Shown here piece after piece: positions 36,457-39,798 of a DNA stretch of 64,000 bases. The DNA comes from Paramagnetospirillum kuznetsovii (lineage in GTDB: Bacteria > Pseudomonadota > Alphaproteobacteria > Rhodospirillales > Magnetospirillaceae), in NCBI RefSeq assembly GCF_003284725.1, contig NZ_PGTO01000004.1:1-64000 (forward strand), read 5' to 3'. Positions within the stretch are counted from its first letter, which is position 1, and every line of letters starts with the position of its first letter. The notes under the pieces are model-generated. The model was given only the letters and a program-made list of their open reading frames with translations. It did no database searches and had not been told where the DNA came from. Made by a program: the position numbers and the translations under genes.

Positions 36457-37815
36457 ATGCCGATTCAAATTCTGATGCCCGCTCTGTCGCCGACCATGAC
36501 CGAGGGCAAGCTCGCCAAATGGCTCAAGGCCGAGGGCGATAGGGTGAAGGCCGGCGACGTGCTGGCCGAAATCGAGACCGACAAGGCCACCATGGAGATG
36601 GAGGCCGTCGAGGACGGCACCATCGGCAAGATCCTGGTGGCGGGCGGCACCGAAGGCGTCGCCGTCAACACCTGCATCGCGCTGCTGCTGGAAGAGGGCG
36701 AGGACGCCGCCTCCCTGAGCACCGCCGCTCCGGCCCCGGCCGTGGCACTCGCCGTGCCAGCTCCGGTGGCCGCGTCACCCGCCGCCGCGCCCATGGCGCC
36801 GCCCGTGGCCGACGAGAAGGTCTATGCCAGCTATAAGCGTCAGACGGTGCGTGAAGCCCTGCGCGACGCCATGGCCGAGGAAATGCGGGCCGATCCGTCG
36901 GTGTTCCTGCTGGGCGAGGAAGTGGCCCAGTATCAGGGCGCCTATAAGGTCAGCCAGGGTCTGCTGGACGAATTCGGCGCCGAACGGGTGATCGACACCC
37001 CCATCACCGAGATGGGCTTCGCCGGTCTGGCCTGCGGTGCCGGTTACGCCGGGCTCAAGCCCATCGTCGAGTTCATGACCATGAACTTCTCCATGCAGGC
37101 CATCGACCACGTCATCAACTCGGCCGCCAAGACGCTGTATATGTCCGGTGGCCAGTTGACCTGTCCCATCGTCTTCCGTGGTCCCAACGGCGCGGCGAGC
37201 CGCGTCGGTGCCCAGCACAGCCAGGACTACGCCTCGTGGTATGCCCATTGCCCCGGCTTGAAGGTAGTGGCGCCGTGGAGCGCCGCCGACGCCAAGGGTC
37301 TGCTCAAGGCCGCCATCCGCGATCCCAATCCGGTGGTGTTCCTGGAAAACGAGCTGCTCTACGGCCAGAGCTTCGATGTGCCCGACGACCCCGATTTCGT
37401 CCTGCCCATCGGGCGGGCCAAGATCGAGCGCGCCGGGAATCACGTCACCATCACCGCCTATTCGCGCATGGTGCAGATCGCCCTCGACGCCGCCGAGCTG
37501 CTGAAGGCCGACGGCATCGAGGCGGAAGTCATCAATCTGCGCACCATCCGTCCGTTGGACACCGCCACCATCGTGGCCTCGGTCCAGAAGACCAACCGCA
37601 TCGTCAGCCTGGAAGAGGGCTGGGCCTATGCCGGTATCGGATCGGAAATCGCCGCCGTGATGATGGAACAGGCTTTCGACTGGCTGGATGCTCCGGTGGT
37701 CCGTGTCTGTGGCGCCGACGTGCCCATGCCCTATGCCGCCAATCTGGAAAAGCTGGCGCTGCCGCAAGCCGAGCAGGTGGCCGAGGCCGCCCGTTCCGTC
37801 TGCTATCGCCGTTAA
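36457..37815 (+). CDS. pdhB: Pyruvate dehydrogenase E1 component, beta subunit with lipoyl domain
   Basis: 452 aa. Residues 1-78 are a full lipoyl domain (Lys43 in [12 protein letters not shown]). After an Ala/Pro linker (~85-120) comes the E1 beta body ([52 protein letters not shown]). A lipoylated E1 beta is a known feature of alphaproteobacterial complexes. The linker here is ordinary Ala/Pro, unlike the altered linker in the next gene. Confidence 0.98.
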
Positions 37816-37830
37816 GAGGGGGGATGTAAG

Positions 37831-39105
37831 ATGCCTGTCCAAATTCTCATGCCCGCCCTCTCGCCGACCATGACCGAGGGAAATCTGGCCAAGTGGCTCA
37901 AGAACGAAGGCGATGCCGTCAAGTCCGGCGACATCATCTGCGAGATCGAGACCGATAAGGCGACCATGGAGTTCGAGGCCGTCGACGAGGGAATCATGGG
38001 CAAGATCCTGGTTCCCGGCGGCACCTCGGGGGTCAAGGTCAACCAGCCCATCGCCGTCCTGTTGCTGGACGGCGAGGATGCCTCGGCCATCCTAACCCCC
38101 TCACCCACCCCAACCCTCCCTCTCCCGCAAGGGGCGAAGGAGGGAGATCGCGCTCCCCAAGCCCCTCTCCCCTCGCGGGAGAGGGGTGGGGGTGAGGGGG
38201 GCGCCGGTGATCGCGTCGTCGCCAGTCCGCTGGCCAAGCGCATCGCCAAGGACGCCAATCTCGACCTTAAGGCGGTCAAGGGCTCCGGTCCCTACGGCCG
38301 TATCGTGAAGTCGGACGTGGAAGCCGCCATCAAGACCGGTCCGGTCCCGGTCGCCGCGCCTGCCGCCGCCGCGCCCGCCGCCAAGCCCGCTCCGGCGCCC
38401 GCCGCCGCCAGCCCGTTCGAGCCCGCCTTCGAGGAGATTCCCAACTCCTCCATGCGAAAGATCATCGCGCGCCGCCTGACCGAGGCCAAATCCACCATTC
38501 CGCACTTCTACCTGTCCATCGATTGCGAGTTGGACGCCCTGCTGAAGACTCGTTCCGACCTCAACGGCCGGTCCGACGCCTATAAGCTGTCGGTCAACGA
38601 CTTCGTGGTCCGCGCCGTGGCGCTCGCCCTGAAGAAGGTGCCCGCCGCCAATGCGTCCTGGGGCGACGAGGCCATCAAGCGCTATACCGACGTGGATGTG
38701 TCCGTCGCGGTGGCGACTCCCACCGGCCTGATCACCCCCATCGTCCATCATGCCGACCACAAGGGCCTGGCCGAGATTTCCAACGAGATGAAGTCCCTGG
38801 CCGCCAAGGCCCGCGACGGCAAGCTGAAGCCCGAGGAATTCCAGGGCGGCGGCTTCACCATCTCCAATCTCGGCATGTTCGGCATCAAGGATTTCGCCGC
38901 CATCATCAACCCGCCCCAGGGCTGCATCCTGGCGGTGGGAGCGGGCGAGCAGCGCCCGGTGGTCAAGAACGGCGCCCTCGCCATCGCCACGGTGATGACC
39001 TGCACCCTGTCGGTGGACCATCGGGTGGTCGATGGCGCGGTGGGGGCCGAGTTCCTGTCCGCCTTCAAGAAGCTGATCGAAGATCCGCTGTCCATGCTTC
39101 TTTAG
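37831..39105 (+). CDS. pdhC: Pyruvate dehydrogenase E2, dihydrolipoamide acetyltransferase
   Basis: 424 aa. Lipoyl domain at 1-80 (Lys43), a first linker (~82-127), the peripheral-subunit-binding domain (~128-167, ASPLAKRIAKDANLDLKAVKG), a second Ala/Pro linker (~170-195), then the catalytic domain ending with the His motif CTLSVDHRVVDGAVGAEFL. It transfers acetyl to CoA and forms the core of the complex. The first linker is odd: codons 89-124 come from a palindromic DNA element (38096-38200) in frame, giving a Pro/Arg/Gly-rich sequence unlike the usual Ala/Pro linker. All catalytic parts are intact. Confidence 0.97.
   Translation: MPVQILMPALSPTMTEGNLAKWLKNEGDAVKSGDIICEIETDKATMEFEAVDEGIMGKILVPGGTSGVKVNQPIAVLLLDGEDASAILTPSPTPTLPLPQGAKEGDRAPQAPLPSRERGGGEGGAGDRVVASPLAKRIAKDANLDLKAVKGSGPYGRIVKSDVEAAIKTGPVPVAAPAAAAPAAKPAPAPAAASPFEPAFEEIPNSSMRKIIARRLTEAKSTIPHFYLSIDCELDALLKTRSDLNGRSDAYKLSVNDFVVRAVALALKKVPAANASWGDEAIKRYTDVDVSVAVATPTGLITPIVHHADHKGLAEISNEMKSLAAKARDGKLKPEEFQGGGFTISNLGMFGIKDFAAIINPPQGCILAVGAGEQRPVVKNGALAIATVMTCTLSVDHRVVDGAVGAEFLSAFKKLIEDPLSMLL
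38096..38200. repeat. 105-bp palindromic element inside the pdhC coding sequence
   Basis: Outer arms CCCCCTCACCC at 38096 and GGTGAGGGGG ending 38200 are inverted. Inner copies of CCCTCTCCC/GGGAGAGGG extend the stem over most of the element. Its 105 bp equal 35 codons and keep the frame. It looks like the widespread intergenic CCCCTCACCC...GGGTGAGGGG palindromes, here inside a gene. Confidence 0.85.
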
Positions 39106-39118
39106 GAGGCAGGACATG

Positions 39119-39214
39119 AGCGAGGGCTTGCCCGAGCGCGGGCGCATTGCGCGCCCCGGAGCTTTAGCGAAGGAAAGCCAAGCGCGCGGAGGCGCGCGCC
39201 CGGCGAATGAGGGG
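39119..39214. repeat. Family-1 repeat (copy B) between pdhC and the next gene
   Basis: GC-rich element ending GCGCCCGGCGAATGAGGGG at 39214, the reverse orientation of the copies near 42805 and 56525. The final GAGGGG (39209-39214) lies 8 nt before the ATG at 39223 and is the only visible ribosome site for that gene. Confidence 0.75.
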
Positions 39215-39222
39215 CTGAATAA

Positions 39223-39798
39223 ATGAGTCTTAACGCGGCGAAAGCCGCTTTCGACAGCCTCAAATCCGATTTCCGCGACGGCCGCTTCCCCATGATCGGG
39301 GCGCGGCTGTGCGGAGAGGCGGTGGAGTGGGGACAGCGGTTGCTGGACCTTTACCGCACCGCCGGTCGCGACGAGCTGGAAAAAGTGGACGCCATGGCCC
39401 GCTTCTGGGTGCTGCGCTATCGCGGCATGCCGGAATCGGCGGATCTGACCGGCGCCGATGGGGCCGCCGGATTCGTGATGGCCTTCACCGCCTTTCCTTA
39501 TCTCGACCTCATGATGGAGGCTTGGGAATTGGGAGAGCCGGTGGAGGAGGGCGCCGATCGGCTGCGGCTGCGCGCCCTGTTCGACGGCAAGGACGAAGGC
39601 GACGTGGTGACGGCGGTTCGCTCCGCCCTGGGATGGAGCTTCGATCTCATGGGGCTTTACCGCGCCAAGGCACGGACCTTCGAGAACTTCATCAATGTGG
39701 AATACGGCGATTTCGACAGTTTCGTCGATTACTACGTGGCCGAGCACGATCTGGATTTCAACTTCGAACAAGCATGGCGGCCGCTGATCGGCGCCTGA
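39223..39798 (+). CDS. Uncharacterised protein encoded within the pdh cluster
   Basis: 191 aa, acidic, soluble, no signal peptide or membrane helix. I recognise no domain. It looks mostly helical, with aromatic-acidic patches near the C-terminus (FENFINVEYGDFDSFVDYYVAEHDLDFNF). It lies between pdhC and a second unknown gene, then lpd, on the same strand, so it is probably transcribed with the complex. Its ribosome site is supplied by the repeat edge. Coding-like composition and good packing support it being real; a role in assembling or regulating pyruvate dehydrogenase is only a guess. Confidence 0.75.
   Translation: MSLNAAKAAFDSLKSDFRDGRFPMIGARLCGEAVEWGQRLLDLYRTAGRDELEKVDAMARFWVLRYRGMPESADLTGADGAAGFVMAFTAFPYLDLMMEAWELGEPVEEGADRLRLRALFDGKDEGDVVTAVRSALGWSFDLMGLYRAKARTFENFINVEYGDFDSFVDYYVAEHDLDFNFEQAWRPLIGA

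Follow-up and report, generated by a model that had tools for sequence, protein, structure and literature searches.

A dispersed palindromic repeat lies in frame in the lipoyl linker of pyruvate dehydrogenase E2 in Paramagnetospirillum kuznetsovii, and other palindromic repeats occupy related linkers

The window analysed here, a stretch of 64,000 nucleotides from Paramagnetospirillum kuznetsovii (genome G000 in our comparisons), carries pdhB and pdhC of pyruvate dehydrogenase (PDH), whose lipoyl domains are homologous (Table 1). Besides pdhC, an E2 search of this genome returned only a 39%-identical E2, which we take to be of the oxoglutarate type, and a match to the E1-beta lipoyl domain. An earlier note, made from the sequence alone, had described a 105-bp palindrome in frame within the pdhC linker and had considered both neighbouring domains intact. 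Our analysis bears out both statements: the element is free of stops in the pdhC frame, its bases touch codons 89-124, and Pfam matches the lipoyl and E3-binding domains on either side normally. No inverted repeat of 12 nt was found in the intergenic stretch after pdhC (39100-39240).

Table 1. Coordinates of the genes, domains and palindrome parts at the pdhB-pdhC locus (positions in the window).
Feature	Position	Strand	Basis
pdhB, E1-beta with its own N-terminal lipoyl domain; linker plain Ala/Pro here	36457..37815	+	ORF, Pfam
pdhC, E2 (dihydrolipoyl acetyltransferase) of pyruvate dehydrogenase, 424 aa	37831..39105	+	ORF, Pfam
E2 lipoyl domain, residues 4-77	37840..38061	+	Pfam PF00364 (Biotin_lipoyl), 1.6e-18
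Palindromic element, 105 bp, in frame, codons 89-124, peptide TPSPTPTLPLPQGAKEGDRAPQAPLPSRERGGGEGG	38096..38200	.	inverted-repeat, fold and shuffle tests
Left outer arm, contains the family tail CCCTCACCC at 38098-38106	38096..38111	.	inverted repeat
Right inner hairpin, 23-nt subtype	38163..38185	.	stem pattern
Right outer arm, contains GGGTGAGGG at 38190-38198	38185..38200	.	inverted repeat
E2 E3-binding domain, residues 129-164	38215..38322	+	Pfam PF02817 (E3_binding)
E2 catalytic domain, residues 199-424	38425..39102	+	Pfam PF00198 (2-oxoacid_dh), 2.6e-87

The outer arms of the element are 16 nt each and 88% complementary. Read in six frames, the element contains a stop in two, and the frame that pdhC uses has neither stop nor tryptophan and a net charge of zero. 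Folded as single-stranded nucleic acid, 38090-38206 reaches -75.2 kcal/mol (z -4.69), a value that none of 200 dinucleotide shuffles reached, and aligning the element with its own reverse complement gave a score of 48, compared with a maximum of 28 among 1000 codon shuffles. Searched against Rfam, positions 37800-38500 had no match at gathering score.

The palindrome belongs to a dispersed family. A BLAST search with the element and short flanks returned 59 matches at E<=1 in its own genome, a count that includes the query site and some places on both strands; three other places there match 86-91 of the 126 query positions at 71-75%, none of them called in-gene. We also counted strict stems (CCCTCKCCC, a loop of 1-14, GGGMGAGGG), with the reversed pattern as a control. 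There were 41 in the window's genome, 59 in its congener G007, 134 in G015 and 1-14 in each of the other 14 genomes of the genus, and the control pattern occurred once in the window's genome and 0-1 times per genome across all 17. The genome search proposed in the earlier note thus recovers many further copies by either measure. In the units of this family, a CCCTCACCC tail adjoins the hairpin, and units are paired with their tails inward in some cases and outward in others, including pdhC. Specifically, the pdhC element is a BIME-like composite of two hairpin units in inverted orientation. Inspected by eye, 21 aligned units, which had been cut at the tail, carry CCCTCACCC and no GTAG/CGTC tag. 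The 23-nt hairpin subtype accounts for 15 of the 41 stems in the window's genome vs none of the 53 stems examined in G007. By far the most stems of the genus were found in G015, yet no RAYT transposase gene was detected there and its PDH linkers are clean.

When we searched the 17 genus genomes for E2, 12 gave a full-length match. The linker was plain Ala/Pro in nine of these, held the window family in two (the window and G007) and held another palindrome in one (G014, taken to be Magnetospirillum sp. SS-4). The pdhC comparison therefore shows a linker that is not shared throughout the genus, in keeping with the insertion suggested previously. The pdhB linker of G007 also carries an element, unlike the window's pdhB. 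A peptide profile built from the three in-frame peptides of the window's genome and G007 was run against 55 genomes of the family and matched the pdhC linker of G038, which belongs to another genus (E 1.2e-9); slightly better than this, at 5.1e-10, was a place in G046 that has an open frame of 52 aa. With G038 added, the profile had matches at E<=1e-3 in 12 of 317 genomes of the order; the four profile-building linkers lead this search by construction, and the best place apart from these four reached 1.8e-10. The left half of the element is read in the same frame in all four linker copies (PTPxLPLPQ; PTPTFPLPQ in pdhB), and the last residues of the window copy, past the right loop, are in another frame than in the other three.

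To place the copies inside or outside genes, we applied a codon-usage log-odds test to both flanks of each cluster, trained on 26 window genes; it called 50 of 51 random interior points of window genes in-gene, these being training genes as well. The set from the window's genome comprised 31 clusters (26 with all 41 strict stems and five weaker BLAST places, with the weak match C22:55575 left out), that from G007 comprised 32 clusters that cover 53 of its 59 strict stems, and that from G038 comprised four strict stems and the pdhC copy. Called in-gene were one of 31 clusters in the window's genome, which is pdhC alone, two of 32 in G007 (pdhC and pdhB) and one of five in G038 (pdhC), so that across 68 clusters every in-gene copy, four in all, falls in a PDH lipoyl linker. 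Nearly all examined copies lie outside genes, which agrees with the earlier description of the palindrome as of a normally intergenic kind. Open frames span other elements in the window's genome and G007, but the codon test rejected all of these except the PDH linkers. Trained on the window's genome, the test gave no usable scores in the genomes of loci L161 and L160 (G318, G320); it could not be applied to the short loci L240, L246, L247 and L255, and on one flank the SS-4 E2 copy fell narrowly below the cut-off (0.09 vs 0.1).

The E2 and E1-beta lipoyl linkers make up ~7e-5 of coding DNA, assuming that 88% of the genome is coding. With so small a target, chance alone would hardly produce an in-gene set consisting entirely of these linkers, even if just two events were independent. 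The linkers are nevertheless not the sole coding site: among several weaker profile matches that we read, one, in a CobN/Mg-chelatase gene of G022 (L071; Pfam PF02514, residues 3-971), is an in-frame palindrome with the family tail and hairpin. Its peptide is IPYPSSPSPTCGRGDDAANAPLPLAGEELGVRD, with the first half in a different frame than in the PDH linkers; it scored E 2.1e-4 in the 55-genome profile search and was not among the E<=1e-3 matches of the 317-genome search.

Linkers diverge too fast among relatives to define a clean empty site or a target duplication. A tree built without the linkers places G038 apart from the window (87/80 and 87/92 at two forks), a position that would still be compatible with one origin. 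The insertions in the window and G007 may go back to one event (77/82 in a tree of E1-beta and E2). In favour of this, the window's left half has its best match in a G007 copy that lies outside genes (score 67 vs 47 in its own genome); against it, the window's right hairpin is of the 23-nt subtype that is absent from the examined G007 stems. The right half is closest to copies of its own genome (score 61 vs 52). The pdhB and pdhC elements of G007 are the closest pair (91/97 identical; the other five pairs share 82-85 of 92-94), and the pdhB copy may be a conversion from the pdhC copy, or one of the two may derive from the other. Given a possible shared event and a possible conversion, the independent entries in the three genomes may number two, and are at least one.

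Linker length bears on whether the element replaces or extends the older linker, both of which the earlier note had allowed. Measured between boundaries that we fixed, the window's E2 linker is 48 aa long, compared with 41-52 aa in 18 near relatives that lack the element; element-bearing E2 linkers span 45-61 aa (seven values, with SS-4 entered twice, as L042 and L111). Since the element alone supplies 35 aa and the total is nonetheless close to that of element-free relatives, most of the old linker is gone. For the most part, the element has thus taken the place of the older linker instead of lengthening it. The repetitive Ala/Pro codons would have dropped out following the insertion.

We then surveyed lipoyl linkers of E2 and E1-beta more widely. 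From 99 loci (11 of which gave none), 138 linkers were obtained, 136 of them distinct, and their folding was scored against codon-order shuffles, with 272 same-length segments of the same genes as controls. Folds with z<-4 were found in eight of 136 linkers and in none of the 272 segments (Fisher p 1.3e-4, with linkers that are not all independent), and folds with z<-3 in ten linkers and three controls; a first run with other shuffles had placed seven of 138 beyond z -4, with L160 at -3.5. The eight are the E2 linkers of G038, L115, L110, the window, G007 and L160 and the E1-beta linkers of G007 and L161. All eight belong to repeats found elsewhere in their own genomes: the G038 element has four strict stems elsewhere, and, in counts that include the query site and both-strand matches of one place, the L110 element has 62 matches (nearly full-length copies at 78-91% identity), that of L115 has 88, that of L161 has 10 (one with 49 identical bases) and that of L160 has eight (the best other at 97% over 33 bases). 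The E2 linker of SS-4 is a ninth case, with a z of only -2.5 to -3.4 but a palindrome that has 14 matches in its genome. The L110 element, from an uncultured Rhodospirillaceae, is ~140 bp long and MITE-like, with several near-full-length matches on both strands. In the E1-beta linker of L156, the peptide VIPSEVEGSK lies over TCATCCCGAGCGAAGTCGAGGGATC, which has an inverted counterpart downstream in the linker; this possible half-palindrome looks like another palindromic repeat.

By pairwise local alignment, the window element is similar to those of L110 and L161 (none of 500 shuffles scored as high), and these two are weakly similar to each other (8/500 as high). Tested in the same way against shuffles, no similarity was detected between the window/L110/L161 group, SS-4, L115 and L160. 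Pairwise comparison thus separates the repeats in these linkers into four groups of no detectable similarity, three of which are represented among the eight. The second E2 linker, between the E3-binding and catalytic domains, had z<-3 in none of 42 cases, and the 11 linkers of the genus's other E2, probably oxoglutarate-type, all appeared plain Ala/Pro by eye, with no palindrome. Ala/Pro linkers are thus not hit in every case.

The palindrome in the SS-4 linker consists of one REP present twice in inverted orientation, and the same REP flanks the SS-4 RAYT gene on both sides; its matches at C7:86285 (+) and C7:86884 (-) bracket the RAYT match at C7:86583-86801. The window's genome has one RAYT gene, outside the window (C43:137561-138133). 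Directly before its start, at C43:137537-137559, there is a stem one base off the strict pattern of the window family that overlaps the REP, and this near stem might link the window family with the RAYT-flanking REP family. In the four RAYT loci detected in the genus, no strict stem and no CCCTCACCC or GGGTGAGGG of the window family was found. SS-4 also has a second E2-like gene (L048/L188, C78:171118-172071), the matched part of which starts after the lipoyl domain; where the linker that precedes the catalytic domain begins, this gene has half a REP (86% over 35 nt).

We consider it very probable that a copy of a dispersed palindromic repeat entered the pdhC linker in phase, was kept because a flexible linker tolerates it, and became most of the arm. 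This reading draws on membership of the repeat family, the reading frame, the intact domains, the absence from most congeners and the recurrence in E2 and E1-beta linkers. The lipoyl arm of 2-oxoacid dehydrogenases depends more on length and flexibility than on a set sequence. Palindromic repeats would insert widely, with most insertions into coding sequence being lost. In pdhC, a repeat of ~105 bp (two inverted hairpin units with outward CCCTCACCC tails) would have landed in phase in the DNA that links the lipoyl and E3-binding domains, and would have brought no stop with it. An open-frame, Pro/Gly-rich insertion could survive there because the arm is tolerant of sequence, and the host would retain it where the linker needs only length, solubility and flexibility. 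Repetitive Ala/Pro codons would subsequently be lost or replaced, so that the element forms most of a swinging arm of ~45-60 residues in total. Insertion, as opposed to another form of recombination, would be the route in this account, tolerance would be the cause of persistence, and the return to the old length would be a later shrinkage. We also lean, with less assurance, towards a broader view in which the PDH lipoyl linkers (E2 and E1-beta) of Alphaproteobacteria are a recurrent acceptor, where unrelated repeats would have supplied swinging-arm sequence time and again and selfish DNA would regularly feed linker turnover in an essential enzyme.

Other explanations have to be weighed against the entry of a repeat followed by tolerance. 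Under ordinary drift, the palindrome would have arisen within a GC-rich Ala/Pro linker with no insertion, either fortuitously or as the linker's own repeats expanded; this reading could appeal to the repetitive, fast-evolving nature of such linkers and to the moderate folding of some plain ones (L113, L040; z ~ -3). Yet the sequence belongs to a family with 41 strict stems in its genome, its palindromicity far exceeds that of the codon shuffles and its peptide is not of the Ala/Pro type, and we regard drift as extremely improbable. A job at the mRNA level is a better contender, though still an unlikely one: the hairpin would be kept to delay translation where the lipoyl domain gives way to the E3-binding domain, or to set subunit amounts in the operon, and both the very stable fold and the recurrence of palindromes at one domain boundary in pdhB and pdhC would be consistent with this. 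However, 128 of the 136 linkers fall short of z -4, the Rfam search of the region gave no match at gathering score, and several of the palindromes have no detectable similarity to each other.

It is also conceivable that PDH linkers are targeted mechanistically, for instance by a transposase with a preference for GC-rich repeats, or through recombination of lipoyl-domain DNA that carries an element from linker to linker. The near identity of the two G007 copies, the closest of the four, together with the homology of the lipoyl domains would fit such a process, as would the fact that the clusters examined in three genomes include no hit in any other gene. The repeats come from several families, however, nearly all copies lie outside genes, the linkers of the other E2 are also Ala/Pro-rich but show no palindrome, and G015 combines its 134 stems with clean PDH linkers, and we therefore hold targeting to be rather doubtful. 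A related possibility is that the element is a REP mobilised by a RAYT, either the one in the window's genome or one in an ancestor. Two observations speak for it: the RAYT gene of the window's genome has a near stem of the window family right before its start, and the SS-4 linker palindrome is a REP that flanks the RAYT of SS-4. Yet each of the four RAYT genes found in the genus is flanked by a GGAGCGCGGGCG-type REP, the type that also forms the SS-4 linker palindrome, and these loci have neither a strict stem nor a tail of the window family; no RAYT was detected in G007 and G015, the genomes richest in that family. RAYT as the mobiliser of the window family is thus disfavoured on these sequence comparisons, and the explanation appears very unlikely.

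That several different repeats lie in frame in the same arm in related bacteria points to floppy linkers as a safe location for mobile DNA within proteins, and the earlier note had likewise proposed disordered linkers as possible safe landing sites. This idea has gained support, in that the in-gene copies among the examined clusters of three genomes are only in PDH lipoyl linkers and other palindromes occupy the same linkers, within the limit set by the CobN copy. Why selfish palindromes enter proteins in some lineages has, to our knowledge, been an open question since the Rickettsia elements were described. Magnetospirillum is free-living. Here, the landing site is known, the role of the linker is understood and one site appears to be used by several dissimilar repeats. 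The notion of disordered linkers as safe havens thereby becomes countable: linkers should hold more than their share of in-frame copies, and the enzyme should be equally active whichever repeat supplies the arm.

REPs inside ORFs were the subject of a 2013 study, reportedly by Di Nocera and colleagues. It describes single and paired REP/BIME copies inside genes of several species, many of the coding targets being genes of DNA synthesis and repair, and proposes that flexible linkers or loops would make in-gene REPs neutral (PMC3733652). The words "pyruvate", "dihydrolipo" and "lipoyl" do not occur in its main text. The window family resembles REP/BIME sequences in its short hairpin units arranged in inverted pairs but differs in having no RAYT association by our strict test. 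ERIC and Correia/NEMIS sequences are described in passages of two further sources as non-autonomous inverted-repeat elements that can fuse in frame to ORFs (PMC2229807; 2024 MITE review PMC10969869). The L110 linker element, with its ~140 bp and several near-complete copies, resembles such MITEs. In the window family, where inverted arms are present, neither a terminal TA nor a target duplication was seen, and the linkers are too divergent to define an empty site. In the open-licence literature, judged by titles and abstract openings, we found no paper on palindromic elements in PDH linkers.

The earlier note had likened the element to the Rickettsia palindromic elements (RPEs), in another order of bacteria. 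As those sources describe them, RPEs are palindromic, 105-146 bp long, dispersed and in frame inside conserved protein genes, and tolerance has been shown for Gmk (PMC2229807; PMC10969869). Compared by description, the window element belongs to the same class of mechanism, being palindromic, repeated in its genome and in frame in a protein gene; in-frame palindromes outside Rickettsia had already been reported in the published passages cited above (PMC3733652; PMC2229807). The difference is that RPEs occur in many unrelated genes, whereas the window family is mostly outside genes and its coding copies are concentrated in one class of linker. Cases of palindromes in frame within proteins were already known from RPEs, REPs, ERIC and NEMIS, and what is new here is the apparent repeated entry of several repeats into one disordered linker, most of which they have replaced.
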